From Terebella lapidaria (Eukaryota > Annelida > Polychaeta > Terebellida > Terebellidae): DNA of 64,000 nucleotides. The notes beneath the pieces are model-generated. The model was given only the letters and a program-made list of their open reading frames with translations, did not search any database and was not told the DNA's origin. Positions within the stretch are counted from its first letter, which is position 1. The number at the start of each line of letters is the position of its first letter. Shown piece after piece: positions 18,599 to 52,194 of the stretch. The translations under genes were made by a program, and so were the position numbers. Location: the NCBI GenBank assembly GCA_949152475.1, contig OX424557.1, positions 24,985,462 through 25,049,461 on the forward strand, in the 5' to 3' direction.

Positions 18599-19929
18599 AT
18601 TGAATGTTCAGTAAATTTGTGAAAATTGGAGCCATGAAAACATTAAAAATATCTGTAAAATCTAGAATCCTCATAAGATTCTGATTAAGTTTTGTCAGAT
18701 TATAGACAAAGTTCGAGGTCAATCATAGAATTGACATCTTTGTCTGATTGATATACCTCTTCTGAATGACATGGTTCAAATTTCATGAACCTACGACAAT
18801 TCCAATGGATGTTATTACCGGAAACGTGTTTTTCTGGGATTTCGATGACCTTGACCTTGACCTTTGACCTTTGCACTTCAAGTCGTAGAGGTCAATGCTG
18901 TCAATATGCATATCAAGTTTCAAGAGATTCCATGCAGTATTGACGGTGTTATGGCCTTTTGAAACTTCGGAAATTTGACGTTTATGACGTCATTGTGACG
19001 TCAGTTTACGTCGCAGCGCCAAAAATAAGATATCACTGGAATCAGGGGCTCAAGACCTTTCTAACGATATACTACTCGATGTGCTGCGCCGACCTTCGTA
19101 CTTGACCTTGACTTCGACCTCAGGCGAACTTCTCAAAGTCAAGGTCAAATGTCGAGATCAAGGTCACAGAAGATAGAACTCGAGTTTATCTACATTATGA
19201 AATTAATTTGAAGTCTCTAGGACCATTAGAACCGAAGTTATGGCCACTTATGTGTTTTCAACGTTTTGCGTGACCTTGACCTTGACCTTTGACCTAGAAT
19301 CACCAAAATCGAACTTGACCTGCCCGTTATCCTACAGAATATGCACACCAACTTTGGAAGGAATTGAGTAAGAAATGTGGACGCTAGAGTGCGAACAAAC
19401 AAACAAATCCACAAACAAATCCACAAACAAACTTCCCCACAAACAGATCAACATACTTGCCAAAATCGAAGATTCTGGCAAGTAACAAATCCACAAACAA
19501 ACTTCCCCACAAACAGATCAACATACTTGCCAAAATCGAAGATTCTGGCAAGTAATAAAGTTCTGATATAAAGTGGCCTGTCGCTTGACCCAGACTGTAT
19601 TTAGACATGAGTTTTAGGCTTTATTATATCAGTTGGACACCTCTGAGTCTGAAAACAAAAGAATTGTTTTGTTGTTTGAGATGTGCACTTGGACACATAT
19701 ATGATATACTGTACTGCTGCTCAACCGAGTGTGTATATTTAGAAGTGGACATGTCCACAGGGGGTAATCGTTTCTGCAGCTTATTGGCGTGTGAACGGAT
19801 TGAGAATCAGATTCACCCCACTGTTCTTTTTACTTTGATATCTCGACGAGTTTTCAATTTATTCCAAATGTAAAAGGTGCATTATAAACTAGAAATAACA
19901 CTGCAACTGACTGTATGAAATGCTTTAGA
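18599..19929 (-). repeat. Macrosatellite unit, type B
   Basis: The 70-bp duplication is at 19416-19485 and 19486-19555, with hairpins at 19455-19483 and 19525-19553. Unlike the earlier B units at 3854 and 10596, no C unit follows it. Confidence 0.92.
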
Positions 19930-22900: not shown

Positions 22901-23712
22901 GCTCAAGACCTTTCTAACGATATACTACTCGATGTGCTGCGCCGACCTTCGTACTTGACCTTGACTTCGACCTCAGGCGAACTTCTCAAAGTCAAGGTCA
23001 AATGTCGAGATCAAGGTCACAGAAGATAGAACTCGAGTTTATCTACATTATGAAATTAATTTGAAGTCTCTAGGACCATTAGAACCGAAGTTATGGCCAC
23101 TTATGTGTTTTCAACGTTTTGCGTGACCTTGACCTTGACCTTTGACCTAGAATCACCAAAATCGAACTTGACCTGCCCGTTATCCTACAGAATATGCACA
23201 CCAACTTTGGAAGGAATTGAGTAAGAAATGTGGACGCTAGAGTGCGAACAAACAAACAAATCCACAAACAAATCCACAAACAAACTTCCCCACAAACAGA
23301 TCAACATACTTGCCAAAATCGAAGATTCTGGCAAGTAATAAAGTTCTGATATAAAGTGGCCTGTCGCTTGACCCAGACTGTATTTAGACATGAGTTTTAG
23401 GCTTTATTATATCAGTTGGACACCTCTGAGTCTGAAAACAAAAGAATTGTTTTGTTGTTTGAGATGTGCACTTGGACACATATATGATATACTGTACTGC
23501 TGCTCAACCGAGTGTGTATATTTAGAAGTGGACATGTCCACAGGGGGTAATCGTTTCTGCAGCTTATTGGCGTGTGAACGGATTGAGAATCAGATTCACC
23601 CCACTGTTCTTTTTACTTTGATATCTCGACGAGTTTTCAATTTATTCCAAATGTAAAAGGTGCATTATAAACTAGAAATAACACTGCAACTGACTGTATG
23701 AAATGCTTTAGA
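19930..23712 (-). repeat. Three macrosatellite units, type A
   Basis: Units start at 19930, 21191 and 22452, with hairpins at 20786-20814, 22047-22075 and 23308-23336. Confidence 0.92.
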
Positions 23713-24598
23713 ATTGAATGTTCAGTAAATTTGTGAAAATTGGAGCCATGAAAACATTAAAAATATCTGTAAAATCTAGAATCCTCATAAGATTCTGATT
23801 AAGTTTTGTCAGATTATAGACAAAGTTCGAGGTCAATCATAGAATTGACATCTTTGTCTGATTGATATACCTCTTCTGAATGACATGGTTCAAATTTCAT
23901 GAACCTACGACAATTCCAATGGATGTTATTACCGGAAACGTGTTTTTCTGGGATTTCGATGACCTTGACCTTGACCTTTGACCTTTGCACTTCAAGTCGT
24001 AGAGGTCAATGCTGTCAATATGCATATCAAGTTTCAAGAGATTCCATGCAGTATTGACGGTGTTATGGCCTTTTGAAACTTCGGAAATTTGACGTTTATG
24101 ACGTCATTGTGACGTCAGTTTACGTCGCAGCGCCAAAAATAAGATATCACTGGAATCAGGGGCTCAAGACCTTTCTAACGATATACTACTCGATGTGCTG
24201 CGCCGACCTTCGTACTTGACCTTGACTTCGACCTCAGGCGAACTTCTCAAAGTCAAGGTCAAATGTCGAGATCAAGGTCACAGAAGATAGAACTCGAGTT
24301 TATCTACATTATGAAATTAATTTGAAGTCTCTAGGACCATTAGAACCGAAGTTATGGCCACTTATGTGTTTTCAACGTTTTGCGTGACCTTGACCTTGAC
24401 CTTTGACCTAGAATCACCAAAATCGAACTTGACCTGCCCGTTATCCTACAGAATATGCACACCAACTTTGGAAGGAATTGAGTAAGAAATGTGGACGCTA
24501 GAGTGCGAACAAACAAACAAATCCACAAACAAATCCACAAACAAACTTCCCCACAAACAGATCAACATACTTGCCAAAATCGAAGATTCTGGCAAGTA
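23713..24598 (-). repeat. Last, partial macrosatellite unit
   Basis: It follows type A through the terminal hairpin (24569-24597) and then leaves the array. The array therefore ends exactly at an element 5' terminus, which suggests the hairpin is a real boundary. Confidence 0.9.
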
Positions 24599-24646
24599 AC
24601 AAGATGACTGACCAACATACTTGGCAAAATTTATTTTGCCAAGTAA
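24599..24646 (-). other. 5' terminal hairpin, GGCAAA subfamily
   Basis: A perfect hairpin at 24619-24644 has arms ACTTGGCAAAA and TTTTGCCAAGT with a four-base loop. It is preceded by the usual GACCAACAT flank. It directly follows the last array unit. Confidence 0.75.
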
Positions 24647-24650
24647 TGAA

Positions 24651-24933
24651 GCAATCGCTCAGAGAGCTAGGACTTGGCAAAATAAAGTAATGAACTGGAA
24701 AAGAAGTCTATACACTAGCTTTTACACTAGCTTGATACAGTTATTAAATTGTGTTGTTATGTTGTTTAGAACGAAATTCATGATCATGATTGTGTAAGTT
24801 GAAAATAAAAATAAAATAATTTCAAGAGAGATTTGAACCCGGGTCTGTGGATTCAAAGTCCTGAGCTCTATGCACAGCACCAACGTGGACGACAGCAGGA
24901 AGTGGCATATGTATGGTAACTGTTCCTTCAAGG
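24651..24933 (-). mobile_element. Short element fragment with a tRNA-derived block (S-type)
   Basis: It starts with the stem-loop GCTCAGAGAGC (24657-24667) followed by ACTTGGCAAAATAAAG (24672 on), the 3'-end layout of this subfamily on the minus strand. The body matches 25715-26040 in order but is divergent. It is interrupted at about 24933 by a head-type segment, so its 5' half is missing or displaced. Confidence 0.6.
24824..24892 (-). pseudogene. tRNA-derived sequence 1
   Basis: On the minus strand an A-box-like TGGTGCTGTGC is followed by GGACTTTGAATCC, which resembles a glutamine (TTG) anticodon arm, and then a B-box-like GGTTCAAATCT. The T-stem does not pair properly and no acceptor stem forms, so this is a tRNA-derived part of a repeat, not a working tRNA gene. 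Confidence 0.6.
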
Positions 24934-25369
24934 CAAATTACTGCTAAAAACCGGGAATGGGGCCGGTTCCTTTGCCGGCTCGTCACCCCCAGCAGTCCTA
25001 ATATAAGGGAGCCTGTCGCTTGACACAGACTGTATTTAGACTAGAGTTTTAGGCTTTGTTATATCACTTGTACATCACTGAGTTAGAAAACCACTGAAAT
25101 GTTGTTTGAGATCTGCATCTGGATACATATATGATATACTGTATTGCTATGCAACCGAGCGTGTGTATTTAGGACGGGACATGTCCACAGGGGGTAATCG
25201 TTTCTACAGCTTATTGGCGTGTGAACGGATTGAGAATCAGATTCACCCCACTGCTCTTTCTACTTTGATATCTCGGCGAGTTTTCAATCTATTCCAAATG
25301 TAAAAGGTGCATTATAAACTAGAAATAACACTGCAACTGACTGTATAAAAACTAAGTTAGAGATAATAG
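24934..25369. repeat. Divergent copy of the array head module
   Basis: It carries an upstream head with the arms GCCGG and CCGGC, the TATA-like stretch (about 25012) and the segment equivalent to 939-1240 of the array unit. The sequence then leaves the unit at about 25350, so no core or hairpin follows. It is clearly diverged from the array copies. Confidence 0.75.
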
Positions 25370-25714
25370 AGATTAGAGTTTTGAGGGAGGGTTGAACACG
25401 GGTCTTTGGATTCAAAGTCTTACGCTCTATCCACTGCACCAACGTTGCCGACAGTGTGAAGAAGTGTATTCCATGTAACAGTTACTTTATGGTTTTCCAG
25501 CCTCCATAGTTATACATGTAGTTATGTAACGGTTTTTCAGTCGCCAAGACAACAGTTTTTAAGCTATGACCTTCAAACTCGATAGGCTCGTGCAGAAGTC
25601 TCATGCGCATCTTCTATAAAACTTTAATGTCATTCCGACAAGGATTGCGTCCGCTATCGTGCGAACAGACGGACAGAACACATATTTGATCGCTGAGCAA
25701 CATACAACTGAAGC
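25370..25714 (-). mobile_element. S-type element fragment with tRNA-derived block 2
   Basis: On the minus strand a tRNA-like block (about 25385-25450) has an A box TGGTGCAGTGG that fits the consensus, the same glutamine-like anticodon arm and a degraded B box. The segment 25450-25700 matches 26010-26250. It ends in an ACAGACGGACAG stretch in place of the usual (GTTT)n tract. Both termini are missing. Confidence 0.55.
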
Positions 25715-25947
25715 AATCGCTCAAAGAGCTAGGACTTGGCAAAATAAAGTTAAAGATTTTGAAGAGAAGTCTATAAACTAGCTTTGGTCTATAAACCCCT
25801 GCACCATAATACTGTAATATATTTTTTTCAATTATTTATTTGTCGTTAACTAAATTGTACATTTATTAAGTTGTGTTGTTATGTTGTTTATAATTAAATG
25901 CATGATCATGATTCTGTAAGCTAAAAATAAAAAAAAAATAGTTTCAA

Positions 25948-26010
25948 GAGAGACTTGAACCCGGGTCTGGGGATTGAGAGTCATACGCTCTATGCTCAGC
26001 ACTAACGTGG
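25948..26010 (-). pseudogene. tRNA-derived sequence 3
   Basis: The minus strand shows an A-box-like TAGTGCTGAGC, a GACTCTCAATC anticodon-like arm and the B-box-like GGTTCAAGTCT. It lies inside the S element at the place equivalent to block 1. The stems are too degraded for a functional tRNA. Confidence 0.55.
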
Positions 26011-26262
26011 CTGGCAGTTGCAGGAGGTGTCATCCACGTAACAACTCATGTATGGCTTTCCAATCGCCATAGGTTTAAGCAATGTAACCGTTTTTTGGTC
26101 ACCAAGACAACAGTTTTTGAGCTATGATCCTCAAATTCAATAGGCTTATAAAGGAGTCTTATGCGCATCTTCTGTGTAAATTTGATGTCATTCAGACGAG
26201 GATTGCGGCCGCTATCGTGCAAACTGACGGACAGACAAACAAACAAGCTGACTGACCAACAT

Positions 26263-26289
26263 ACTTGGCAAAAATGTATTTTGCCAAGT
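26263..26289 (-). other. 5' terminal hairpin, GGCAAA subfamily
   Basis: Arms ACTTGGCAAAA and TTTTGCCAAGT close this hairpin. It is the 5' end of the S element, and the next element's 3' stem-loop begins only 12 bases later. Confidence 0.75.
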
Positions 26290-26679
26290 AACAAACGAGA
26301 GGCCATAGGCCACACACTTGCCGGAATGGATATTTGACAGGTTTCAATGATTTTCAAAACTTGACCTTGAAAGTTTGCTCATGTGACTTCATTTTTCTGA
26401 CCAAGTTCAAGGTATATCATGCATTTAACATATAAGTCTGAGTGTCATGCCTGTTCTGAATGATATGATTCAAATTTCATGAGCATACAAAGATTCAAGC
26501 AGAAGTTATTAATTACTGGAAAGGTGTTTTTTCTGGGATTTTGATGACCTTGACCTTGATCTTTGACCTTTGTACTACAATTCGTAGAGGTCAATGCTAT
26601 CAATGGGTATATCAAGTTTCAAGATACTCCATACAGTATTGACGCTGTTATGGCCTTTTGGAATTTCGGAAATTTAACC

Positions 26680-27300
26680 TGTATGATGCAGTCACAGTTT
26701 GATGATGCCAAAAACAAACGTAAAATACAACAGTTTGCAATGAAAATTGTAGCTCGATCAAATAGTTCATCCGAAGACACACTGAAATATTCCACTCATA
26801 TTCATGAAACACTTTTTTGTTATCTCCATAAAGGCACGAAGTAGTAGATTCTTTGTGTTTTCTGCTTCAGACTTGATTTTGATTTAATATCGCGAAACTC
26901 ATGTGGAATAATAATACCCAGCCATACACCGAGGTTGAAGGCTAGAAACGGTTCAATTTTCGTGAAAATCGGTCAAGTGAAGAGGTCACAAAAATCTCAA
27001 AAAATTCCTCACGCTGCCGCCACAGCAGCCACACCAATGCGCAGCCATGGGATATACCTGCATTTATTCTGAGGGCTGTCTCTTGTACGCTATATGCTTC
27101 ACACGCAGCAACTTTCAAGTGACAGTTTGGCTCAGTCAGTAAAGGCGTTAGATGTTGGTGCGCGGGGTCAGGGGTTCGATTCCTATTGCCACTTTTTTTT
27201 TTTTTTAAATTCCAACTAAATTACTTTTTCTGTTTCTGAGTGTTTTTTTGTATTAATTCTGATATGTTTTCCACAGTCACCCTTTTATCTAATTCTATTG
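26680..27300. repeat. 620-bp cassette inside element Y (copy 1)
   Basis: The core sequence breaks off at about 26680 and resumes as 328-bp monomers at about 27300. The cassette between them also occurs at about 32045-32665. Inside it, 26900-26933 is an inverted copy of part of the 328-bp monomer. The remainder is not recognised. Confidence 0.7.
27119..27192 (+). pseudogene. tRNA-like sequence with consensus B box (copy 1)
   Basis: It spans 74 bases. GTGACAG at the start can pair with TTGCCAC at the end with one mismatch and one G.T pair. The A box is TGGCTCAGTCAG-like. GGTTCGATTCC is a perfect B box. A run of T follows at once, which could stop RNA polymerase III. The anticodon arm does not fold well, so a tRNA-derived element or decayed tRNA is more likely than a working gene. 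Confidence 0.6.
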
Positions 27301-28560
27301 TTCTGATAATTACAGTCTAATACCTTTAAATTGAAGTGCACTGTGGATGTTTGAGAGTTTGCTAAAAAGTTGAAATATTGGTATGACAGGCCATACGTTT
27401 ATGACGTCATAGCGGAAAATCTATCATGGCGGAAAAGTATCAGACAGTACCCTTCTAAAGCAGAATTCAACGAGCTTTCCAATGGCGCAATTCTCTTTTC
27501 TGTACGACAAATACTTTCCGATATATAGCCCCATTTCGAAAAATGACGTTTCACGTCGTGACGTCATTGACGTTTCACCTAGCGTGTTGAAACTCGGTAT
27601 ATGGCTGGGTAGTATCATTCCACATGAGTTATGATAATTACAGCCTAATATCTTCAAATTTGAGTGCACTGTGGATGTCTGAAAGTTTGCTGAAAGGTCG
27701 AAATATCGGTATGACAGGCCATACGTTTATGACGTCATAACGGAAAATCTATCAGGGCGGAAACGTATCGGACAGTACCCTTCTGAACCAGAATTCAACG
27801 AGCTTTCCAATGGTGCAATGCGCTTCTCCGTGCGACAAATACTTTTCGATATATAGCCCCATTTCAAAAATTGACGTTTTACGTCATGACGTCATTGACG
27901 TTACACGTAGTGTGTTGAAACTTGGTACATGGCTGGGTATCATTATTCCACATACGTTCTGATAATCACAACCTAATAACTTCAAAATTGAGTGCACTGT
28001 GGATGTTTGAAAGTTTGCTGAAAAGTCGAAAAATTGGTATGACAGGCCTCACGTTTATGACGTCATAGCGGAAAATCTATCATAGCGGAAAAGTATCGGA
28101 CAGTACCCTTCTGAACCAGAATTCAACGAGCTTTCCAATGGTGCAATTTGCTTCTCCGTACGACAAATACTTTTTGATATATAGCCCCATTTCGAAAATT
28201 GACGTTTTACGTCATGACGTCATTGACGCTACACGTAGTGTGTTGAAACTTGGTATATGGCTGGGTATCATTATTCCACATACGTTCTGATAATTACAGC
28301 CTAATACCTTCAAAATTGAGTGCACTGTGGATATTTGAATGTTTGCTGAAAAGTCGAAAAATTGGTATGACAGGCCTTACGTTTATGACGTCATAGCGGA
28401 AAATCTATCTTGACGGAAAAGTATCGGACAGTACCCTTCTAAACCAGAATTCAACGAGCTTTCCAATGGTGCAATTCGCTCCTCTGTACGACAAATACTT
28501 TCCGATATATAGCCCCATTTCGAAAGTTGACGTTTTACGTCATGATGTCATTGACGTTCA
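27297..28560 (-). repeat. Tandem 328-bp monomers in element Y
   Basis: The landmark CGTTTATGAC recurs at 27396, 27724, 28052 and 28380, exactly 328 bp apart each time. Each monomer includes a CRE-type cluster, for example ACGTCATGACGT at 27881-27892 overlapping TGACGTCA at 27887-27894. Monomers differ by scattered substitutions, unlike the near-identical macrosatellite units. Confidence 0.9.
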
Positions 28561-28881
28561 ACCGATCCAGATATAACTTCGCAGTATGATGCATTATATC
28601 AACATATATTGGTGTGCTAAATTTCAAATGTATCGGACTGAATATGACTGTGGTGTAAATTTTTTAAATTTCGCCAATGATGAGAGATAGGGATTTTTTA
28701 AGTTTTCAAGAATTTTTGGTGACGTCATCAGTGAACCGATTTTTTCCAAAAACGTGCGATCCCGTCCCAGAGCGGATACCTATCTATCAAAAAAGTTTCG
28801 AGATCATAGCGCAAAAACTGTGGACGCTAGAGGGCGTACAGACAAACACACAAACACACAAACAAACCAACCGACCAATAT

Positions 28882-28911
28882 ACTTGCCGAAATCTTTAGA
28901 TTCCGGCAAGT
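28882..28911 (-). other. 5' terminal hairpin, GCCGG subfamily
   Basis: Minus-strand arms ACTTGCCGGAATC and GATTTCGGCAAGT pair over 13 positions with one G.T pair. This is the 5' end of element Y. Confidence 0.75.
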
Positions 28912-28932
28912 AACAAACGGAACTGACCAACA

Positions 28933-28961
28933 TAGTTGTCGAATTTTCAATTCGTCAACTA
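28933..28961. other. Terminal-type hairpin, TAGTTG variant
   Basis: Plus-strand arms TAGTTGTCGAATT and AATTCGTCAACTA close on a three-base loop with one T.T mismatch. The usual ACTTG start has changed to AGTTG on one arm with the matching change on the other. Confidence 0.65.
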
Positions 28962-29784
28962 ATAAAGCTCCGCAAGTAGAAGAGACCCTGCGTATATCCG
29001 TTTCATGTACAGGATCTTTGGTTTTTAGATGAATGGTGCTCCCTACGCGTTTTCGTCACCCCCGATAGTGCTGATATAAAAGATCCCCTCGCTTGCCACA
29101 GATTGTATTTAGACAAGGGTTTTAGGCTTTGTTACATCACTTGTGCATCACTAAGTTGGAAAACCACAGAAATGTTGCTTTAGACCAGTATTCAGATGCA
29201 TACAAGGTATATTGTATTACTACGCTACCGAGTGTTGATATTAGAGACGGTACGTGTGCACAGGGGGTAATCGTTTCCACATCATATTGAATTGTGAACG
29301 GGCTGACCAACAGTTTTACCCCAGGTCTCTTTAAGTCCTAATATCTCAGCGAGTTTTCAAGTTATTTTGAAAATAAAAAGTGCACCTTAAACTAGAAATA
29401 ACACTGCATTTTTCTACATAAACAGCTTCAAAATTCAATATCCAATGATTTTTTTAAAATTGGATCCAGAAGAAAATGAAATGTATCCGTAGAATCCGGA
29501 ATCCGGATCCGATCCGGATCAAACTTGCAATGTCTGTAGAGGTTGTCATTCTACACATGTGACTAAAATTTCAAGAGAATTCAATAAAAATTAAACGAGT
29601 TATGAATTTTTGAAAAATCGCCCCATGTTAAAGATAGGGATTTTTCGAGTTTTCAAGAATTTTTGATGACGTCATCAATAAACCGATTTTCTTCAAAAAC
29701 TTTCGGTGTCCTTCCTGGGTGAATACCTACCTATCAGAAAAATTTCGTGATGCTCGCACTAAAACTGTGGCCTGTATCGTGCAA

Positions 29785-29815
<31 letters not shown>

Positions 29816-29844
29816 AACAAACAAACAAACGGAACTGACCAACA
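28962..29844 (-). repeat. Divergent head module with a different core
   Basis: The head with its TATA-like stretch (about 29072) and the following segment are recognisable to about 29420. The frame that is open in other copies is closed here. The core is replaced by a block with GGATCCGATCCGG-like sequence and the AGATAGGGATTTTTCGAG tail seen in other elements. It ends in (ACAG)n(CAAA)n at about 29785-29831. Confidence 0.65.
29785..29831. repeat. Compound microsatellite (ACAG)n(CAAA)n
   Basis: Pure tetranucleotide repeats lie just before two terminal hairpins. This is the position of the GTTT-type tract in the element layout. Confidence 0.85.
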
Positions 29845-29934
29845 TAGTTGTCGAATTTTCAATTCGTCAACTAACAAACAAACAGACAAACCGAACTGAC
29901 CAACATAGTTGACGAATTTTTAATTCGTCAACTA
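29845..29934. other. Two tandem terminal hairpins, TAGTTG variant
   Basis: The hairpin at 29845-29873 repeats the 28933 sequence with its single mismatch. The hairpin at 29906-29934 has perfect 13-base arms TAGTTGACGAATT and AATTCGTCAACTA around TTT. They sit within CAAAC repeats, like the tandem hairpins of the B units. Confidence 0.7.
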
Positions 29935-29940
29935 ACAAAC

Positions 29941-30290
29941 AAATGAAATCGCTCGCTGCTGCTGACTTGACGGCTGAAAGCCTTCGCTGGTACAGCGAGT
30001 ACTTGCCGGAATTGAAAAAAGAGAACTTTGACCTTGAGCTGTAATGTCAAAGTCAAATGACACGACCAAGTCCCTCAAGGGACTTTAATATGCTACAATA
30101 TTTTTTAGATCAAACTGTTTTCAATGATTAGTTCTGAAGTTATAGCCGTTTATGTGATTTTGACCTTTTCCATGACCTTGGCCTTTGACCTAGAATCACC
30201 AAAAGTGTGCAGTCGCGAGAAGTGAGACTTTGAAAGAAATCCAGTGAGAATTGTGGACGCTAGAGGACTAAAAAAGCAAATGAGTTTCTT
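29941..30290 (-). mobile_element. 3' end of a GCCGG-subfamily element
   Basis: A perfect stem-loop TCGCTG-GTA-CAGCGA (29984-29998) precedes ACTTGCCGGAATT (30001-30013). This is the 3' terminal layout with a stem unrelated in sequence to the CCATAGG stem-loops. A short hexamer-bearing body follows and ends at a tail resembling GTGGACGCTAGAG (about 30252). Confidence 0.55.
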
Positions 30291-32044
30291 TGAAATTTCA
30301 CCAAATTTCTTCATTAAGACATGTCATTATGACGTTGTATGACGTCGGATTTCAAAAATAAAAACATATTTGGAAAGTACTTCCAAAGACCTTTCGAAAA
30401 AGGTACTACTCGATATATTCGCAAAGGGTCAAGGTCAAGGTCATTTTTGAGGTCAACTTTGACCTCAGGCATCGAGGTCAAAAGTGACATTCAAAGTCAT
30501 CTAAGAAAGGCTTTTTGATATGCTGTAATATGTTCCTAGTTTGAAATCTCTATGACGATTTTTACCAAAGTTATGGTCATTTATGTAATTTTGACCTTTT
30601 CCTTGACCTTGACCTCGACCTTTGGCCTCGGGTCACGAAAATTGTGCATCGCCTGTGCATGAAGATATAGAATATACTTGAATAATTTCATCAGAATCGA
30701 ACAACAATTGTGGACACTATGGCCTTTTGAATCTTCGAAAAATTGACGTTTATGACGTCACTGTGACGTCAATAAACGTCACATATCAAAACTAATGAAA
30801 TAGTATGCATCAAGCGATCATGACCTTCCATTTGATATACTACTTGATAAGTTTCAGTTAGTTTGAAAATTTGACATTGAAATTTTGCTCATGTGACCTC
30901 AATTTTCCGACCAAGTTCAAGGTCATTCATATCAATGACATATTCGTCTGATCGTCATATCCCTTCTAAATGGTATGATTTAAATTTCATGAGCCTACGA
31001 CGATTCAAGCAGATGTTATTACCAAAAAGGTGTTTTTCTGGGATTTTGATGACCTTGACCTTTGATCTTTGTACCTCAATTCGTGAAGTTCATTGCTGTC
31101 AATATGCATATGAAGTTTCAAGAGATTCCATACAGTATTGACGATGTTATGGCCAGTTGAAATTTCGGAAATTTGACGTTTTTGACGTGATTGTGACGTC
31201 ATTGTACGTCGCAGCGCCAAAAACAAGATATCACAAAAATCAGGGGCTCAAGACCTTTCCAACGATATACTTCTCGGTATGGTGCGCTGACCTTTGCACT
31301 TGACCTTGACATTCACCTCATGGTGAACTTCTCAAGGTCAAGGTCAAATGCCAAGGTCAAGGTCACTGAAGATAGAACTCGAGTTTATCTACAATATGAA
31401 CTTGGTTCGAAGTCTCTATAACGAATAGAACCGGAGTTATGGCCACTTATGTGTTTTTAACATTTTGCGTGACCTTGACCTTGACCTTTGATCTTGAGTC
31501 ACGAAAATTGTGCATTGCCTGTGCATGAAGACATATATTATACCTGTATAATTTCATCAGAATCGAACAAGCTTTGTGGACAATATGACCTTTTGAAATT
31601 TCGAAAAATTAACGTTTATGACGTCACTGTGACGTCAATAAACGTCACAACTCAAAACTGATGAGAAAGTATGTACCAGAGAATCAAGACCTTTCATTTA
31701 ATATACTACTCGATAGGTTTCAGTTAGTTTTAAAATTTGACCTTGAAGTTCTCCTCATATGACCTTATTTTCCTGACCAAGTTCAAGGTCAATCATGAAT
31801 TTGACATATAGGTCCGATTGCTATACCTCTTCTGAATGATATGGTTCAAATTTCATGAACCTACAACAATTCAAACGGATGTTATTACAGAAAAAGTGTT
31901 TTTCTGGGATTTCGATGACCTTGACTCTTGACCTTTGCACTTAAATTCGTGGAGGTCAATGCTATCAATGGGTATATCAAGTTGCAAGATGCTCCATACA
32001 GTATTGACGCTGTTATGGCATTTTGGAATTTCGGAAATTTAACC
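30291..32044 (-). repeat. Alternating core segments rich in TGACCT and TGACGTCA
   Basis: Two related core types alternate. One carries CACTGTGACGTCAATAAACG (near 30760 and 31627), the other CGTCGCAGCGCC (near 31208). The two P-type segments are about 865 bp apart. Both types carry TCAAGGTCA runs on one strand or the other. No reading frame of interest is present. Confidence 0.7.
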
Positions 32045-32665
32045 TGTATGATGCAGTCGGAGTTTGATGATGCCAGAAACAAACGTAAAATACAACAGTT
32101 TGCAATGAAAATTGTAGCTCGATCAAATAGTTCATCCGAAGACACACTGAAATATTCCTCTCATATTCATGAAACACTTTTGTTATCTCCATAAAGGCAC
32201 CAAGTAGTAGATTCTTTGTGTTTTCTGCTTCAGGCTTGATTTTGATTTAATATCGCGAAACCCATGTGGAATAATAATACCCAGCCATACACCGAGGTTG
32301 AAGGCTAGAAACGGTTCAATTTTCGTGAAAATCGGTCAAGTGTGAAGAGGTCACAAAAAGTCTCGAAAAATTCTTCACTCTGCCGCCACAGCAGCCACAC
32401 CAATGCGTAACCATGTGATATACCTGCATTCATTCTGAGCGCGGTCTCTTGTAGGCTATAATATGTTTCACACGCAATAAATTTCAAGTGACGGATTGGC
32501 TCAGTCAGTAAAGGCGTTAGGTCTTGGTGCGCGGGGTCGAGGGTTCGATACCTATTGCCACTTTTTTTTTTTTTTAATTCCAACTAAATTACTTTTTCTG
32601 TTTCTGCGTGTTTTTTTTTGTATTAATTCTGATATGTTTTCCATAGTCACCCTTTTATCTAATTC
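32045..32665. repeat. 620-bp cassette, copy 2
   Basis: It matches 26680-27300 at an offset of 5365-5369 bp with scattered substitutions, and again precedes 328-bp monomers. An inverted piece of the monomer is at about 32263-32296. Confidence 0.7.
32488..32561 (+). pseudogene. tRNA-like sequence with consensus B box (copy 2)
   Basis: It is again 74 bases, with GTGACGG at the start, TTGCCAC at the end, a TGGCTCAGTCAG A-box region, the B box GGTTCGATACC and a following T run. It differs from copy 1 at several bases. As there, the anticodon arm is not well formed. Confidence 0.6.
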
Positions 32666-33600
32666 TATTGTTCTGATAATTACAGTCTAATACCTTTAAA
32701 TTGAAGTGCACTGTCAAAGTTTGAGAGTTGGCTGAAAAGTCGAAATATTGGTATGACAGGCCTTCCGTTTATGACGTCATAGCGGAAAATCTATCATGGC
32801 GGACAGTACCCTCCTAAACTAGAATTCAACGAGCTTTCCAATGGTGCAATCCGCTTTTCTGTACGACAAATACTTTTCGATATATAGCCCCATTTCGAAA
32901 ATTGACGTTTTACGTCATGACGTCATTGACGTTGCCCGTAGCGTGCTGAAACTTGGGATATGACTGGATATCATCATTCTACATACGTTCTGATAATTAC
33001 AGTCCAATACCTGTAAATTTGAGTGCACTGTGGATGTTTGAAAATTTGCTGAAAAGTCGAAAAATTGGTATGACAGGCGTTACGTTTATGACGTCATAGC
33101 GGAAAATCTATCATGACGGAAAAGTATCTGACAGTATCCTTCTGAACCAGAATTCAACGAGCTTTCCACTGGTGCAATTCGCTTCTCTGTACGACAAATA
33201 CTTTTTGATATATAGCCCCATTTCGAAAATTGACGTTTTACGTCATGACGTCATTGACGTTACACGTAGCGTGTTGAAACTTGGTATGTGGCTGGGTATC
33301 ATAATTCCACATACGTTCTGATAATTACAGCCTAATAACTTCAAAATTGAGTGCACTGTGGATGTTTGAAAGTTTGCTGAAAAGTCGAAAAATTGGTATG
33401 ACAGGCCTTACGTTTATGACGTCATAGCGGGAAATCTATCATGGCGGAAAAGTATCGGACAGTACCTTTCTGAACCAGAATTCAACGAGCTTTCCAATGG
33501 TGCAATTCGCTTCTCTGTACGACAAATACTTTCCGATATATAGCCCCATTTTGAAAAATGACGTTTCACGTCGTGACGTCATTGACGTTCAAACAATCCG
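32666..33600 (-). repeat. Tandem 328-bp monomers, about three copies
   Basis: Landmarks fall at 32766, 33083 and 33411, spacings of 317 and 328 bp. The short first spacing comes from an 11-bp loss near 32804. Each monomer keeps the ACGTCATGACGT palindrome except the last, which reads ACGTCGTGACGT like other last monomers. Confidence 0.88.
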
Positions 33601-34222
33601 GGTAAAACTTCGCAGTTTGATGGAGGATACCATTATATATCCGTGTGCTGAATTTCAGAAGTATCGGTTCAAATGTGACTGCTGTGTGAATTTTTGAAAA
33701 TTCGCCAATGATGTTAGATAGGGATTTTTCGATTTTCAATGATTTTTGGTGACGTCATCAATGAACCGATTTTTTTTCAAAAACGTGCGGTGCTTTTCAT
33801 GGGCAAATGCCTATCTACCAAAAAAGTTTCGCGATGATTACACAAACACTGTAGACGCTAGAGTGCGAACAAAAAGAATGTGTTAAATTGAGCTTTCAAT
33901 GTTAAATTCAATTGGCTGTCAAATCCGTAATCCGAATCCGATCCGGATCAAACTTATAACGTTTATAGAGGTTGTCATTCTATACAGATGTTCAAAATTT
34001 CGAAACGATTCAATGCAAATTAAGCGAGTTATAAATTTGTGAAAATCGCCCCATGGTAAAAGATAGGGATTTTTCGATTTTCAATGATTTTTGGTGACGT
34101 CATCAATGAACCGATTTCTTCCATCTTCGAACTCGTCCGAGCCATTATCCTAGAGAATGTGCTCACCAAGTTTGGAAACAATCGAACCAGAAATGTGGAC
34201 GCTAGAGTGCGAACAAACAAAC
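33601..34222 (-). repeat. Two tail blocks after the 328-bp monomers
   Basis: The block containing AGATAGGGATTTTTCGA and TGGTGACGTCATCAATGAAC occurs at about 33710-33770 and again at about 34060-34115. Both copies end at a GTGGACGCTAGAGTGCG-like stretch (GTAGACGC in the first). The same tail closes other monomer arrays at 28660, 45410 and 47560. Confidence 0.7.
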
Positions 34223-36146
34223 GAGAAAACGCTGCAAGCAGCCTTGGCGAAATGCAGCGTCTTTTTTGCGTTTTAGATTTTAGCATTTTGACAGATTTGA
34301 TGATTTTTGCCATAAAACAAGATAACAACATCAGAATGAGATTACATCAGCGCTGTTCACAATTGTCTGAGCTGATGTTGCTCAAATACTTGAAAATTGA
34401 GCTGGACACACTTCAGATTTGATGACTTCTTGAGCGATACTTCAGACATTAATTGCAATATACAGTGGTTGTTTTTTTTATCACTGCTCCGCAGTGACAC
34501 TTGGCGAAATCCAACTGTGAAAAACTAATTGAATTTTTAATTTTGAAATGTCATTGAGGAGCAGTTTGTGTTATAAACAAAAACTATATTGGTGGGGCAA
34601 TTGCATTTACTGAATGCGTTATTGGTGTCTGATAGATGGCAATTGTGTAATTTAACTGTGCCAATAACTCAAAAGTATTCACAGCATGTCAACTTGATAG
34701 CAGTATATGTTTGTTTTATTTTACACTAAAACGGCCTGAGAACTGAACAATGGGCATCCTGAGCCAATTCGCTTAAAAAAATTCTACTTTCGGTTTTGTG
34801 TAATTTGACACCACAGGTGTAATCTGATACCAAACCACACCTATTATATTGCAAATTAGCCCTCCGGGTGAGAAAATAACGTTCTTTTTGCTCTATGATG
34901 ATATTTAATGAGATGTGGAGGTTTTTATGGAAAGTGAGTGATAATAAGGGAAAGTATCATTTTTAGGCCTTGAAAGACACCAGAATGGAAAAATAACTAA
35001 TCCTTGGGCATCCGGAGCCCATTTGCTTGAAAAATAATTCTACTTCCGGTTTGGTGTAATTTGACACCACAGGTGTAATCTGATAACAAACCACACTCAA
35101 TTTCATGCCAATTCGCCCTTTGGGTCCCAAAATAACGTCCTTTTTGCTCTACGATCAATATTTAATGAGATATGGAGGTTTTTATGGGAAGTGAGTGATA
35201 ATAGGGGAAAGTATCTCTTTTGGGCATTGAAAGACACCAAATTGGAAAAATAACTGATCCTTGGGCATCCTGAGCCCATTTGCTTGAAAAATAATTCTAC
35301 TTCCGGTTTGGTGTAATTTGACACCACAGGTGTAATCTGATAACAAACCACACTTAGTTTAATGCCAATTAGCCCTATGGGTACGAAAATAACGTCTTTT
35401 TTGCTCTATGAGCAATATTTACTGAGATATGGAGGTTTTGATGGGAAGTGAGTGATAATAGGGGAAAGTATCACTTTTGGGCATTGAAAGACACCAAATT
35501 GGCTTAATAACTGATCCTTGGGCATCCTGAGCCCATTTGCTTGAAAAATAATTCTACTTCCGGTTTGGTCTAATTTGACACCACAGGTGTAATCTGATAC
35601 CAAACCACACCTAATATAATGCCAATTAGCCCTACGGGTCCGAAAATAACGTCCTTTTTGCTCTACGATCTATATTTACGGAGATATGGAGGTTTTTATG
35701 GAAAGTGGGTGATAATAGGGGAAAATATCAATTTTTGGCCTTGAAACACACCAAAATGGCCTAATAACTGATCCTTGGGCATCCTGAGCCCATTTGCTTG
35801 AAAAATAATTCTACTTCCGGTTTGGTGTGGGATGACGTCATCATAGTGAAATACATGCTGATTTGCATAATCTATGATTTTTATATATTATACCTATGTG
35901 ACTGATCCGAAAATAACGTTATTTTTGCTCCATCTGCAATAGTTTTTGAGATATGGAGGTTTTAAGTTCATCATTGGCTTAAATGGCAAACGATTTTCAA
36001 AACGTTCCTGTGACCTTGACCTTTGACCTACGACCTTGAAAAACAATGCCGGATCTAACAATTTGGATGTGTATGTCTGGTGAAAATTTCACAAAAATCA
36101 GATGAAAATTGCGCCCCCTAGAGGGCGAACGGACAAACAAACAAAC
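34223..36146 (-). mobile_element. Element W', 257-bp core repeats, 5' end missing
   Basis: Its 3' end on the minus strand is the perfect stem-loop GCTGC-AA-GCAGC (34231-34242) with CTTGGCGAAAT (34243-34253). A second stem-loop CACTGC-TCC-GCAGTG (34482-34496) with ACTTGGCGAAAT lies inside. Then come about four 257-bp monomers, a short tail and a CAAAC tract at 36130-36146. Element X1 is inserted there, and no GGCG-type terminal hairpin follows X1, so the 5' end of W' is lost. Confidence 0.65.
34751..35870 (-). repeat. Tandem 257-bp monomers
   Basis: The landmark TGGGCATCC recurs at 34751, 35005, 35262, 35519 and 35776, spacings of 254, 257, 257 and 257 bp. Each monomer holds a two-level inverted repeat. 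At 35562-35606 the outer arms are GGTTTGGT and ACCAAACC, and inside lies ACACC-ACA-GGTGT. Confidence 0.88.
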
Positions 36147-37902
36147 GAGAGCCCATAGGGCACACACTTGCCAGAACCAAAATATATGTCATATGCCAAT
36201 GACATGACATATGGATTTAACAAATTGACGAAACTTACTTCCCTACTTACTACGTTTACTTACTTACTTTACTTCATTTTACTTCACTTTACTTCACAAA
36301 CTACTCATACTGTCATTGTTACCTCATTGAACGTCACAGTGCCAAAAATGAGACATCACTGGACTTAGGAGACCAAAAACTTTCTAAAGGTATACTACCC
36401 GATATGGTGAGCTGAACTTCGTACTTGCCCTCGACATTGAGCTCATCACAAAGTCTCAAGAACAAGGTCAAAGGTCAAATTCAAAGTCAAATAAGGAAGA
36501 TTTTTTAATATGCTGCAATATGGTCTTAGTTTGAACTCTCTACGACGATTAGTTTCGAAGTAATGGCCATTTATGTGATTTTGACGTAATTATGACGTCA
36601 TTTGTCGTCAATTCTATGCTGCAAACTTACTGTGAAATGATTTTTTTGAATATGCATGTCAAAATAATTTATATATGTATTATATTATCAGCAGACAAGT
36701 TCATAATATCTTGAAATAATAAGTTTTTTTTGAAAATTTAGCGATTTGTTGCCACAAAAACGTCAATTACGTCAAAATGGATATATGGATTGAGCTAAAA
36801 CTTGACAGAGAGCATCATAGGCCGAATCCACATCGTTTGCAGCTGTTAGGTCCGCAGTGAATCTTGTAAGTTTGCACACCTGACACTCAAAAGGCCTAAA
36901 TGTCAGTCTGAAATCACATTCGACGTCATTATGACGTCAATTGACGTCCGATTCCAAAAATGACAACACATTTGGACAGTACTCTTGAAGACCTTTCAAA
37001 TGAGTTACTACTCGATATTTTTGCAAAAGGTCAAGGTCAAGGTCATTTTTAAGGTCAATTTCGACCTTAGGCGCTTGCAAAGGCTATCGGTCATACGCCT
37101 TAGGTGTAATGGCAAAAGTTGTTAGGCTAAGTGAGTGCATTACTGTGGATTTACTTTCGTGTCTCTATTTTGCTTACTTTCTGAGATATAGTGACCTACA
37201 TGGTTTTCACTTGCAGGTCAATATTGACCTTGACTTTCGACCCTTGACCTTAAAATTTTTTGGAACATAAGAACTTATCCTTGACTATAAACGGGTTTAT
37301 CATTAGATTTTTACGCACAGTATTGACGCTTTTATCAGCATGGAGAGCTTGAAACATGCAATTTCGCTTATCATGGGACTGATTTTGTTGCCATAGAAAC
37401 GTCAATTACGTCATAACGGATTGACCGATCGCGCTAAAAATTGACATTGACCATAAGGGACCGGTCCCACATCGTTTCCAAGCATCAGATCGAAAATCGG
37501 AGGAGATGACCTCCAAGGTCAAATATTCGACCTCAGGCGAACTTCTCAAGTTCAAGGTCAAATGTCAAGGTCAAGGTCACGAAAGATAGAACTCGAGTTT
37601 ATCTACAATATGAACTTGATTTGAAGTCTCTAGCACTATTAGAACCGAAGTTATGGCCACTTATGTGTTTTCAACGTTTTGCTTGACCTTGACCTTGACC
37701 TTTGACCTACATACACCAAAATAGGACGTTTTCCGCGCGGTATACTAGAGAATATGTACACGAAATTTGGAGGAAATCGGGTGAGAAATGTGGACGCTAG
37801 GCTGTAAACAAACAAACAAACAAACACACAAACAAACACACAAACAAACACATCCACGAACAGACCAACATACTTGCCAAAATCGAAGATTCTGGCAAGT
37901 AA
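36147..37902 (-). mobile_element. Complete element X1 (GCCAG subfamily)
   Basis: On the minus strand it starts with the hairpin at 37872-37900 (outer arm ACTTGCCAGAATC) and a (GTTT)n tract (about 37805-37860). It ends with the inverted motif ACTTGCCAGAA (36166-36176 on plus) and the stem-loop GCCCATAGGGC (36151-36161). The core has hexamer clusters, an (ACTT)-rich stretch (about 36235-36300) and the inverted repeat ATATGTCAT/ATGACATAT (about 36183-36211). It lies between CAAAC repeats on both sides, as expected of insertion into a (GTTT)n tract. No protein is encoded. Confidence 0.78.
37872..37900 (-). other. 5' terminal hairpin of element X1
   Basis: Same sequence as the macrosatellite hairpin: minus-strand arms ACTTGCCAGAATC and GATTTTGGCAAGT. 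This links X1 to the family that built the left array. Confidence 0.75.
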
Positions 37903-38319
37903 CAAACAAACGAGAAAACGCTGCAAGCAGCCTTGGCGAAATGCAGCGTCTTTTTTGCGTTTTAGATTTTAGCATTTTGACAGATTTGATGATATTTGCC
38001 ATAAAACTAGATAACAGCATTACAATGAGATTACATCAGCGCTGTTCACAATTGTCTGAGCTGATGTTGCTCAAATACTTGAAAATTGAGCTGGACACAC
38101 TTCAGATTTGATGACTTCTTGAGCGATACTTCAGACATTAATTGCAATATACAGTGGTTGTTTTTTATCACTGCTCCGCAGTGACACTTGGCGAAATCCA
38201 ACTGTGAGAAACTAATTGAATTTATAATTTTGAAATGTCATTGAGGAGCAGTTTGTGTTATAAACAAAAACTGTATTGGTGGGACAATTGCACTTACTAA
38301 ATGCGTTATTGGTGTCTGA

Positions 38320-38445
38320 TAGATGTAGTTTAATCATGACAGTTACCATAGTATTGACACTCTGAAAAAATCTGACACGTTAAAATTGATTGGATTTTTC
38401 GATTTTGTAGTTACTACCTGTAACGTTGGTGGCAATTGTGTAATT
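38320..38445. repeat. Extra segment in W absent from W'
   Basis: About 115 bp between the GTCTGATAGATG and GGCAATTGTG landmarks are present here but missing at the equivalent place near 34636. I see no repeats at its edges that would explain it. Either copy could be the derived one. Confidence 0.5.
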
Positions 38446-38543
38446 CAACTGTGCCAATAACTCAAAAGTATTCACAGCATGTCAACTTGATAGCAGTATA
38501 TGTTTGTTTTATTTTACACTGAAACGGCCTGAGAACTGAACAA

Positions 38544-39420
38544 TGGGCATCCTGAACCAATTCGCTTGAAAATAATTCTACTTTCGGTTTTGTGTAGTTT
38601 GACACCACAGGTGTAATCTGATACCAAACCACACCTAGTATATAAAAAATTTTCCTTCCGGTTTGGTGTAATTTGACACAACAGCTGCATTCTGATACCA
38701 AACCTCACCTATTATATTGCAAATTCGTCCTTTGGGTCCCAAAATAACGTCCTTTTTGCTCTACGATCAATATTTAATGAGATATGGAGGTTTTCATGGG
38801 AAGTGAGTGATAATAGGGGAAAGTATCACTTTTGGGCCTTGAAAGACACCAAATTGGCTTAATAACTTATCCTTGGGCATCCTGAGCCCATTTGCTTGAA
38901 ATATAATTCTACTTCCGGTTTGGTGTAATTTGACACCACAGGTGTAATTTGATAACAAACCACACTTAGTTTAATGCTAATTAGCCCTATGGGTACGAAA
39001 ATAACGTCTTTTTTGCTCTACGAGCAATATTTACTGAGATATGGAGGTTTTAATGGGAAGTGAGTGATAATAGGGGAAAGTATCACTTTTGAGCATTGAA
39101 AGACACCAAATTGGCTTAATAACTGATCCTTGGGCATCCTGAGCCCATTTGCTTGAAAAATAATTCTACTTCCGGTTTGGTCTAATTTGACACCACAGGT
39201 GTAATCTGATACCAAACCACACCTAATATAATGCCAATTAGCCCTACGGGTCCGAAAATAACGTCCTTTTTGCTCTACGATCTATATTTACGGAGATATG
39301 GAGGTTTTTATGGAAAGTGGGTGATAATAGGGGAAAATATCAATTTTTGGCCTTGAAACGCACCAAAATGGCCTAATAACTGATCCTTGGGCATCCTGAG
39401 CCCATTTGCTTGAAAAATAA
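38544..39420 (-). repeat. Tandem 257-bp monomers in element W
   Basis: Landmarks fall at 38544, 38874, 39131 and 39388. The first spacing is 330 bp because a 73-bp part of the monomer with the inverted-repeat arm is repeated. The others are 257 bp. Confidence 0.85.
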
Positions 39421-41930
39421 TTCTACTTCCGGTTTGGTGTGGGATGACGTCATCATAGTGAAATACATGCTGATTTGCATAATCTATGATTTTTATATAT
39501 TATACCTATGTGACTGATCCGAAAATAACGTTATTTTTGCTCTATCTGCAATAGTTTTTGAGATATAGAGGTTTTAAGTTCATCATTGGCTTAAATGGCA
39601 AACGATTTTCAAAACGTTCCTGTGACCTTGACCTTTGACCTACGACCTTGAAAAACAATGCCGGATCTAACAATTTGGATGTGTATGTCTGGTGAAAATT
39701 TCACAAAAATCAGATGAAAATTGCGCCCCCTAGAGGGCGAACGGACAAACAAACAAACAAACAAAAAATCGGCCATAGGCCAACACTTGACGAAATGACT
39801 AAACATTTGTTTACATTTAAAACATTTACCCATAATTTACACATTGAAAAGATTTACTGAACAACTCCTCGACATTTGAAGAAAGATACTTTTTTCATGA
39901 AATTTTTACGTTGGGCAAACTTTTCAAGGTCAAGGTCAAAGTGCACATTCAAGGTCAGCGGACAAAGACCTTTTGATATGCTACAATATGGTCCCAGTTT
40001 GAACTTTCTATGACGAATAGTTCCGAAGTTATGGCAATTTTCTGTGATTTTGACCTTTTCTTTGACCTTGATCTTGACCCTTGACCTTGGGTCACGAAAA
40101 CTGTGCATTGCCCGTGCATGAAGATATAAATTATACTTGAACAATTCCATCAGAATCGAACAAGAATTCCGGACACTGTGGCTTTTCGAAATTTCGAAAA
40201 ATTTACGTACATGAGGTCACTGTGACGTCAATAAACGTCACATTTGAAAACTGATGGGAAACTATTTATCATGGGTTCAAGGCCTTCCATTTGATATATT
40301 ACTTGATACCTTTTAGTTAGTTTGAAAATTTGACCTTGAAGTTTTGCTCATGTGACCTCATTTTTCCGATCCAGTTCAAGGTTAATCATGGAATTGACAT
40401 ATAAGTCTGATTGCTATACCTCTTCTGAATGATATGGTTCAAATTTTATGAGACTACAACGATTCAAACAGATGTTATAACCGAAAGGGTGTTTTTCTGG
40501 GATTTCAATGACCTTGACCTTGACCTTTGACCTTTGTATTTCAATTTTTAAAGGTCAATGCTATTAATATGCATGTCAAGTTTCAAGGTATTCCATACAG
40601 TATTGACGCTGTTATGGCCTTTTGAAATTTCGGTACTTTGACGTTTATGACGTCATTGTGACGTCAGTGTACGTCGCAGCGCCGAAAATAGGGCATCACT
40701 GCAATCAATGGCTCAAAACCTTTCCAACGATATACTAATCGATATGGTGCGATGACCTTCGTATTTGACCTTGACATTCACCTTAGGCGAACTTCTCAAG
40801 GTCAAGATCAAATGCCAAGGCCAAGGTCACAGAAGATAGGACTCGAGTTTATCTACAATATGAACTTGGTTTGAAGTCTCTATAACAAATAGAACCGAAG
40901 TTATGGCCACTGATGTGTTTTTAACATTTTGCGTGACCTTGACCTTGATCTTTGACCTTGAGTCACGAAAATTGTGCATTGCCTGTGCATGAAGACATAT
41001 ATTATAAATGTGTAATTTCATCAGATTCAAACAAGATTTGTGGACACTACGACCGTTTGAAATTTCGGAAAATTAACGTTTATGACGTCACTGTGACGTC
41101 AATAAACGTCACATCTCAAAACTGATGAGACATTATGTACCAGGCAATCAAGACCTTTCATTTGATATACTACTTGATAGGTTTCAGTTAGTTTGAAAAT
41201 TTGACCTTGAAGTTTTCCTCATATGACCTTATTTTCCTGACCAAGTTCAAGGTCAATCATGAAATTGACATATACGCCCGATTGCTATACCTCTTCTGAA
41301 TGATATGGTTCAAATTTCATGAACCTACGACAATTCAAACGGATCTTATTACCGGAAACGTGTTTTTCTAGGATTTCGATGACCTTGACCTTGACCTTTG
41401 ACCTTTGTACTTAAATTCGTAGAGGTCATTGCTGTCAATATGCATATCAAGTTTCAAGAGATTCCATACAGTATTAACGATGTTATGGCCTTTTGAAATT
41501 TCGGAAATTTGACGTTTATGACGTCATTGTGACGTCAGTTTACGTCGCAGCGCCAAAAATAAGGTATCACTGGAATCAGGGGGTCAAGACCTTTCCAACG
41601 ATATACTACTCGATATGGTGCGCTGACATTCGTACTTGACCTTGACATTCACCTTATGGCGAACTTCTCAAGGTCAAGGTCAAATGTCAATGTCAAGGTC
41701 ACAGAAGATAGAACTCAAGTATATCTACAACATGAACTTAGTTTGATGTCTCTAGGACAATTAGAACCGGAGTTATGGCCATTTATGTGTTTTTGACGTT
41801 TTGCGTGACCTTGAACTCAATATTTGACCTTGACCTCCCAAAAATGAACTCATCCATCTGTATTTGATTGCACATCTTCTGACCTATTTGCATGATTCTA
41901 CGATCAAAATTGTGACCTGTGGAGCGCTAA

Positions 41931-41990
41931 CACACAAACAAACACACAAACAAACAAACAAACAAACAAACAAACAAACAGACAGACAAA
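41931..41990. repeat. (CAAA)n microsatellite with a short CAGA run
   Basis: Near-pure CAAA repeats change to CAGACAGA just before the hairpin of element Z. On the minus strand this is the GTTT tract behind the 5' terminus. Confidence 0.88.
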
Positions 41991-42006
41991 CGCGACTGAC
42001 CAACAT

Positions 42007-42033
42007 ACTTGACGAAATTTAATTTCGTCAAGT
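42007..42033 (-). other. 5' terminal hairpin of element Z
   Basis: The 13-base arms are perfectly complementary with a one-base centre. It is one of the few hairpins without a G.T pair on the minus strand. Confidence 0.75.
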
Positions 42034-42062
42034 AAAAAACATACATCCAAACCAACCAACAT

Positions 42063-42091
42063 ACTTGGCAAAATCGAAGATTTCGCCAAGT
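42063..42091 (-). other. 5' terminal hairpin of element W
   Basis: Minus-strand arms ACTTGGCGAAATC and GATTTTGCCAAGT pair with one G.T. The outer arm matches the inverted motif at 37932, not that of the neighbouring element Z. Confidence 0.75.
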
Positions 42092-42093
42092 AA

Positions 42094-52133: not shown

Positions 52134-52194
52134 CAAACAAAAAAACAAACGGCACCGATCAACATACTTGACAAAATCTTTGATTTCGTCAAGT
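52134..52194 (-). other. CAAA tract and terminal hairpin, GACG subfamily
   Basis: The hairpin at 52166-52194 has minus-strand arms ACTTGACGAAATC and GATTTTGTCAAGT with one G.T pair. It is preceded by CGATCAACAT where other hairpins have GACCAACAT. Confidence 0.72.

Follow-up and report, generated by a model that had tools for sequence, protein, structure and literature searches.

The stretch of 64,000 nucleotides from the annelid Terebella lapidaria analyzed here (C3:24985462-25049461, within a 762-Mb genome of 438 contigs; in the following, the window) is composed of nested and tandem repeats and is, with high confidence, a pile of HINEs, that is, of non-autonomous Helentrons, belonging to at least five parallel classes with a class-specific subterminal inverted repeat (subTIR) at both ends. 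The subTIR, which is 11-12 nt long, forms the outer arm of a hairpin at the 5′ end and is located just inside a short palindrome at the 3′ end. Read on the plus strand, the left (3′) end consists of the palindrome, a short spacer, and a motif starting with CTTG; the right end is the hairpin, the outer arm of which is the inverted copy of the CTTG motif. The classes are named after the four bases following CTTG, which are CCGG, CCAG, ACGA, GCGA, and GCAA. The minus-strand order of 5′ subTIR, complementary inverted repeat, tetranucleotide tract, central repeats, 3′ subTIR, and 3′ palindrome, which had been proposed in an earlier examination of the letters alone (the sequence-only reading), was confirmed, and the same layout is described for HINE and Cg_HINE elements (PMC4067079, PMC7492417). 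In keeping with the definition of HINEs as elements without a transposition protein, no open frame of at least 120 amino acids is present in the 64 kb; scans of the window for tRNA genes and Rfam families gave no match.

The four end pairs on which the sequence-only reading was built are all present. The CCGG-class HINE (26297..28912, minus strand, as are all window elements described here) has ACTTGCCGGAAT at 26316 (3′ subTIR 26316-26327) adjoining the palindrome GGCCATAGGCC (26301-26311), the inverted copy being the outer arm of the hairpin 28883-28910; its central repeats (27300-28558) have a 328-bp unit. In the CCAG-class HINE (36147..37901; palindrome 36151-36161), CTTGCCAGAA at 36167 has its inverted partner at 37890-37899, within the hairpin 37873-37899, next to an ACAA/GTTT tract (37806-37852). 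The GCGA-class HINE (37910..42092; palindrome 37920-37931) carries CTTGGCGAAAT at 37932 with the inverted partner at 42080-42090 of the hairpin 42064-42090, as well as 257-bp central repeats (38644-39440); both of its ends are homologous to a 26.8-kb coding element treated below. Nested in it is the ACGA-class HINE (39769..42034; palindrome 39771-39781), with CTTGACGAAAT at 39786, the inverted partner at 42022-42032 of the hairpin 42008-42032, 436-bp repeats (40268-41615), and an ACAA/GTTT tract (41929-41991). In three of these pairs (26316, 36166, and 37932), the inner hairpin arm is one base off the outer arm, and it is the outer arm of which the left motif is an exact copy; the arms of the ACGA hairpin are perfect. 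The CCGG, CCAG, ACGA, and GCGA motifs occur 5, 28, 17, and 5 times in the 64 kb, against 0.01-0.12 expected from dinucleotide shuffles. A systematic scan for 5′ hairpins and left ends kept the four classes previously distinguished and added a fifth that had been overlooked, the GCAA class (CTTGGCAAAAT; 24645..26290), with 3′ ends at 24673 and 25735, palindromes GCTCAGAGAGC and GCTCAAAGAGC, respectively, and a 5′ hairpin at 26264-26288.

Left ends directly precede a hairpin in seven instances, all seven being of the same class (one is a higher-order-repeat copy); removal of nested pairs adds two more, 37932/42064, which agree, and 49076/52167, which do not. By this one rule, eight of nine window pairs match against 2.4 expected (P 0.0003), or seven of eight without the higher-order-repeat copy (P 0.0006). 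Taken alone, the four pairs first noticed would be matched by a shuffle with a probability of 0.042, so that the claim of class pairing is carried by the genome-wide data. In the genome, 2,015 sites match the hairpin pattern exactly, 75 of them of the GCGA class, and reversed-pattern controls of the hairpin and 3′-end searches gave no match. For 44 of the 63 GCGA 3′ ends (up to 2 mismatches), a GCGA hairpin is found on the same strand and on the right side at 1.6-5.0 kb, with no intervening GCGA 3′ end; 11 (tandem neighbours) have one on the wrong side at up to 6 kb, and none has one on the wrong strand. The other ends comprise 527 3′ ends of the CCGG/CCAG pattern, 831 ACGA and 2,418 GCAA 3′ ends (up to 1 mismatch), 925 GCAA hairpins, and 491 short ACGA hairpins. 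All classes were compared on contig C1, using the listed ends below 47.2 Mb (196 3′ ends and 219 hairpins; a pair being a hairpin followed by a 3′ end at no more than 6 kb). Among the matches listed, 47 of 52 adjacent 5′/3′ pairs were of the same class; shuffling gave a mean of 18.1 when free and of 35.2 within 200-kb blocks, and in either case 0 of 20,000 shuffles reached 47. GCAA 3′ ends on C1 are listed below 41.31 Mb, and up to that point 35 of 39 pairs agree; the strict patterns miss varied ends, and an "adjacent" pair may therefore skip one. The random pairing of classes which the sequence-only reading had named as evidence against itself was thus not seen.

Insertion was studied at flanks and at empty sites. 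For ten GCGA copies, both outer flanks were read; the surroundings differ from copy to copy, several copies being located within another element's ACAA tract, and in one copy (locus L081) the 3′ tip is lost. The joined flanks of four GCGA copies and of one CCGG copy (L052) were searched for empty sites. Sequence running through the junction was found for two of the five, at 30 places (best identity 98%) and at 8 places (best full-length identity 89%), respectively; for the other three, two of which did not have their own flanks listed, no empty site was found among 40 of 2,566 candidates scored. One empty site was read for each of the two flanks; relative to the join, both lack exactly AA, which is TT in terms of the sense strand. 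Of 28 distinct flanks, 26 have AA immediately ahead of the 3′ tip and the remaining two have TA; behind the 5′ end, AA was seen in 54 of 54, many of these loci having been fetched by a pattern that already contains TT. These observations fit an element (T)ACTTG…CTCG(T) placed between T and T, or one with the TT duplicated, and nothing longer. Insertion into a TT target, as suggested before, therefore agrees with both empty sites, at which a 2-bp TT duplication is indistinguishable from none. In the window itself, the ACGA element (39785-42033) is nested within the GCGA element (37932-42091) in its ACAA tract, and two uninterrupted homologues of the host tract of the nested 39769-42034 were aligned; likewise, the CCAG HINE 36147..37901 is inserted in the ACAA tract of the GCGA element starting at 34235.

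Matched ends could also be the product of segmental or tandem duplication of a few founders, in which case the matching would be uninformative on recognition. Tandem arrays and higher-order repeats are indeed plain in the window and on C1, and end classes cluster locally; yet the 200-kb-block shuffles keep this clustering and expect only 35.2 of the 52 listed C1 pairs to agree. Furthermore, the GCGA 3′ ends fall into 40 clusters more than 50 kb apart, the ten GCGA copies differ in their surroundings, and nesting together with the two empty sites attests to real insertions. Duplication, which is regarded as improbable, would moreover leave to be explained how five different codes with agreement between both ends originated.

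An element with Rep and helicase and with the same ends, for which a genome search had been recommended by the sequence-only reading, was found for the GCGA class. The coding element C7:2332884-2359703 (26,820 bp) was read end to end; both ends are of the GCGA class (CTTGGCGAAAT), the left end being ACGAGAAAACGCTGCAGTGCAGCCTTGGCGAAAT and the right hairpin having a GCGA outer arm, and it thereby combines subTIRs at both ends with a 3′ palindrome, as is characteristic of Helentrons. The position C7:2362514 was rejected as its left end because the copy there is closed by a hairpin at 2359723; the left end proper is 2359703. A single open frame of 2,308 amino acids, scanned for domains as two halves, contains STPR, DUF6570, OTU, Helitron_like_N, PIF1, and Exo_endo_phos domains. 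Rep (PF14214, 2.9e-31) and a PIF1-like helicase (PF05970, 7.5e-19) are thus combined in one protein, which ends in an AP-type endonuclease (PF03372, 2.1e-9; residues 880-1059 of the second half); no transposase family was found in the domain scan of this large frame. The Rep motif IEFQARGSPHAH, present in the C7 frame as well as in that of a Rep copy on C1, fits motif 2 of the Helentron type, (V/I)ExQxRGSPHxH, in which S precedes P (PMC4067079). In the window orientation, the C7 Rep frame is read from the plus strand, against the 5′-to-3′ sense of the ends; reversed frames are known in other Helentrons, among them one Drosophila family (PMC4067079). With the window elements, the C7 element shares the 257-bp central repeats and the right end (87.6% identity to 34723-36146 in an alignment of 1,440 columns), and the homology of the window element starting at 34235 ends at 36146. 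Two further Rep copies were read in part, one on C3 with the frame in two overlapping pieces and the one on C1 with an open frame of 2,407 amino acids; their best pieces are 90.9% and 91.4% identical to the window, respectively, the C1 piece, from the right end, being compared with 38955-39800. A 3′ palindrome of the TTGGCC(AGT/ACT)..GGCCAA type accompanies the GCGA subTIR at position 17315 of the oriented stretch in the C1 copy (L071/L072) and at L066. Since a further palindrome type is thus associated with one subTIR, the subTIR code would seem to be the more slowly changing of the two.

These proteins also bear on Helitron2 proper, which has the same asymmetric inverted repeats and hairpins and would be moved by a Rep/helicase devoid of endonuclease. 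Descriptions of Helitron2 do indeed include asymmetric inverted repeats together with palindromes at the two ends (PMC4067079, PMC5148889); the C-terminal Exo_endo_phos domain, the OTU domain, and the Helentron-type Rep motif, evidence which comes from the GCGA coding element, speak against Helitron2 and render it quite unlikely. Cut-and-paste miniature inverted-repeat transposable elements (MITEs) with imperfect terminal inverted repeats, to which the inverted motifs at both ends and the want of coding capacity in the window might point, have next to no probability left, considering that the ends are asymmetric with a hairpin at the 5′ end and a separate palindrome at the 3′ end, that the two empty sites allow at most a 2-bp TT duplication, and that the large frame of the coding element with these ends contains Rep and helicase and no transposase family, by which MITEs are refuted for the GCGA class.

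For two more classes of the proposed Helentron system, candidate coding elements are available. Among 150 scored matches of PF14214 in the genome, some lie between ends of the same class by position: C1:38283310-38309100 and C1:41180368-41201705 between CCGG ends, C1:46374314-46396051 and C1:70541305-70561797 between ACGA ends. At the last of these, hairpins of the 27-nt form are outside the matches listed there, so that a closer hairpin is possible; a long ACGA pair, C1:13185095-13201000 (15.9 kb), has no Rep among the matches listed. The CCAG and GCAA classes are without a link to any coding element. A FastTree tree was calculated for 30 Rep segments, comprising 24 of the 30 loci L009-L038 (six equal-score loci being omitted) and six added ones. 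In this tree, the two CCGG Reps form a clade (support 1.0), as do the three GCGA-type Reps (0.99), while the two ACGA Reps fall inside a third clade of eight members (1.0), which also includes L028 and L032, each of which has an ACGA hairpin at a distance of 10-11 kb from its Rep match. So far, Rep clades would appear to accompany end class. The 21.3-kb CCGG candidate is hosted by an array of GCAA 3′ ends (C1:41.15-41.31 Mb; spacing ~1.04-1.08 kb), its 5′ end lying ~23 bp from a GCAA 3′ end.

Several observations weigh against a strictly class-specific Helentron system. Pairs mismatched by class amount to 5 of 52 on C1 and to 1 of 9 in the window, where the left end 49076 (CCGG) faces the hairpin 52167 (ACGA) after removal of the pair 50415/52130; ends taken to be private to their subfamily therefore follow a strong rule, which is not absolute. 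The left ends 24673, 30002, 34243, 44278, and 46911 are without a clear partner. The CCGG and ACGA coding candidates are joined by position only. A further clade of the Rep tree has ambiguous ends: the nearest upstream 3′ end of its member L021 is of the CCGG class, and its member L023 has a GCGA hairpin at 10 kb. The assignment of end classes to Rep clades hence has exceptions and may not extend to all clades. The left (3′) end of the C7 element is only ~68% identical to the window element over ~550 bp. HINE partners outside the mite are reported to be more than 95% identical, and those in the mite 84-99.9% (PMC4067079); compared with the former value, the C7 copy is to be regarded as a family-level partner and not as a direct parent. 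At the right end of the C3 Rep copy, four consecutive hairpins are found (GCGA, CCGG, CCGG, GCGA). For the C1 Rep copy, no hairpin of its own was seen and the class rests on right-end homology; this is ascribed to another, GCGA-type element that sits in its tract (left end 17315, hairpin 19450).

Regarding the mechanism, activity, rolling-circle transfer, and recognition by Rep are predicted from the structures described. The Rep of each class would recognise its own code at both ends and introduce a nick between T and ACTTG at the 5′ end of the minus (sense) strand; a single strand would then be peeled off up to the 3′ palindrome (…CTCG/T) and be joined into a TT site, often within the TTTG tract close to the 5′ end of a second element of this kind. 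Such a scheme would account for both nesting and class-matched ends.

The 5′ hairpin deserves separate consideration. Between the arms of 18 distinct 5′ hairpins, 17 differences were counted, 14 with G in the outer and T in the inner arm, two T.T, and one C.A; ten further hairpins obtained by the genome pattern search had one G.A difference (copy counts of hairpins include overlapping loci). The common difference is a G.T pair on the sense strand, and when one hairpin of each of four classes (CCGG, CCAG, GCGA, ACGA) was folded, the sense strand gave the better fold in all four. This fits a use of the hairpin as single-stranded sense DNA and may serve as a lead; shared ancestry plus C-to-T change could give the G.T differences as well. 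Because the differences are almost only G.T on the transferred strand, the inner arm might be kept for pairing and the outer arm for its sequence. It is conceivable, if rather doubtful, that co-resident Helentron systems are separated by a subTIR code that is read at both ends by a Rep clade of their own and is common to the HINEs of that clade, the 5′ end being kept folded on the transferred strand as a hairpin of single-stranded DNA; the separation might then be as small as one base, as between GCGA and GCAA. Perhaps the 3′ subTIR, which can pair perfectly with the outer arm, acts as a switch bringing the ends together.

The remainder of the window holds further elements of the same kind. 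The GCGA-class element 34235..36146 has its left end at 34243, 257-bp repeats at 34751-35828, and an ACAA tract; no hairpin of its own was seen. CCAG-class pairs are 6023/8957 (6003..8958), repeated at 12765/15699 in the same higher-order repeat, and 50415/52130 (50395..52131). Second, inner 3′-end-like copies, consisting of the palindrome TCACTGCTCCGCAGTGA and CTTGGCGAAATC, occur ~256 bp inside the first 3′ end of the GCGA elements at 34481-34510 (34500) and 38168-38197 (38187), and the 26.8-kb coding element has one too, with one change in the motif; this suggests a composite 3′ end formed by self-insertion. A further hairpin type, AGTTG(T/A)CGAATT…AATTCGTCAACT, adjoins elements at 28929-28955 and 29840-29940, being tandem once. 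Inside the 328-bp-repeat elements, a tRNA-like stretch (GGCTCAGTCAGTAAAGGCGTTAG…GGTTCGATTCC) followed by a T run is found at 27128-27207 and 32494-32576; it looks like the head of a short interspersed nuclear element, though the tRNA finder reports no gene.

Arrays are of two kinds. In the first, 5′ ends are accompanied by few or no 3′ ends and the units have a common flank (window 1-24.6 kb; C1:38.54-38.64 Mb); in the second, of the GCAA class, 3′ ends recur every ~1.04-1.08 kb and hairpins are fewer. The window region 1..24596 consists of tandem units of ~1.26 kb (1.33 kb with a doubled hairpin) with a CCAG 5′ hairpin and mostly without a 3′ end (19 hairpins, 2 left ends). In 52104..62738, 5′ hairpins are likewise frequent, the majority being CCAG or the 27-nt form of ACGA, and a left end was not found there. 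Tandem units of the CCAG, CCGG, and ACGA classes (window 1-24596; L047; L064) share the flank …AAACTCATGTCTAAATACA…TATATCAGAACTT. In those CCAG and CCGG units that were read, the following 5′ end directly adjoins this flank; in the ACGA unit, additional sequence comes after it. It looks as if 3′-truncated copies had read into the same neighbour.

A single genome thus contains at least five classes side by side and ends in the thousands; for one class a coding partner was read completely, and two further classes have candidates. The discrimination by Rep between own and neighbouring ends in a eukaryotic rolling-circle system thereby becomes testable with natural one-base variants. In addition, the tetranucleotide tract of one element is the landing site for the next, which offers a route to satellite-like arrays.

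The tetranucleotide tract and core repeats of bivalve pearl elements are similar to the present elements in layout. Canonical Helitron traits (5′ TC, 3′ CTRR, insertion between A and T) are not found, the ends being (T)ACTTG…CTCG(T) and the target TT. The Cg_HINE elements of Crassostrea gigas are alike in having a subTIR with inverted repeat, a tetranucleotide tract, satellite-like repeats, a 3′ subTIR/palindrome, and several parallel families (PMC7492417). No autonomous element could be related to them in that report, whereas here one with matching ends was read end to end; nor was a later autonomous link for the oyster HINEs found in the open-access literature, including passages of PMC7992393. 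The Helitron2/FoHeli elements of Fusarium share asymmetric terminal inverted repeats, end hairpins, reversed frames, and composite ends by self-insertion, but they are described as being without endonuclease, FoHeli1/2 having the target TNAT (PMC5148889); here, the target is TT and an endonuclease is present in the GCGA coding element, which accordingly is placed with the Helentrons rather than with Helitron2. Helentrons and HINEs of Metaseiulus, Culex, and Drosophila resemble the present ones in the Rep/helicase with C-terminal endonuclease, the SPH motif, the TT target, and a subTIR that is itself palindromic (PMC4067079). In contrast to these, OTU, Rep, helicase, and endonuclease are encoded here in one frame of 2,308 amino acids on an element of 26.8 kb, the HINEs are more diverged from the coding copy, and a fixed G.T pair is present in most 5′ hairpins seen. 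Summarizing, the Helentron-derived identity proposed by the sequence-only reading is supported by class pairing, by two TT empty sites, and by a coding element with Rep, helicase, and endonuclease. Since layout, target, and proteins agree, the elements constitute a well-supported new set within the known HINEs and Helentrons, of which the class code is the testable part.

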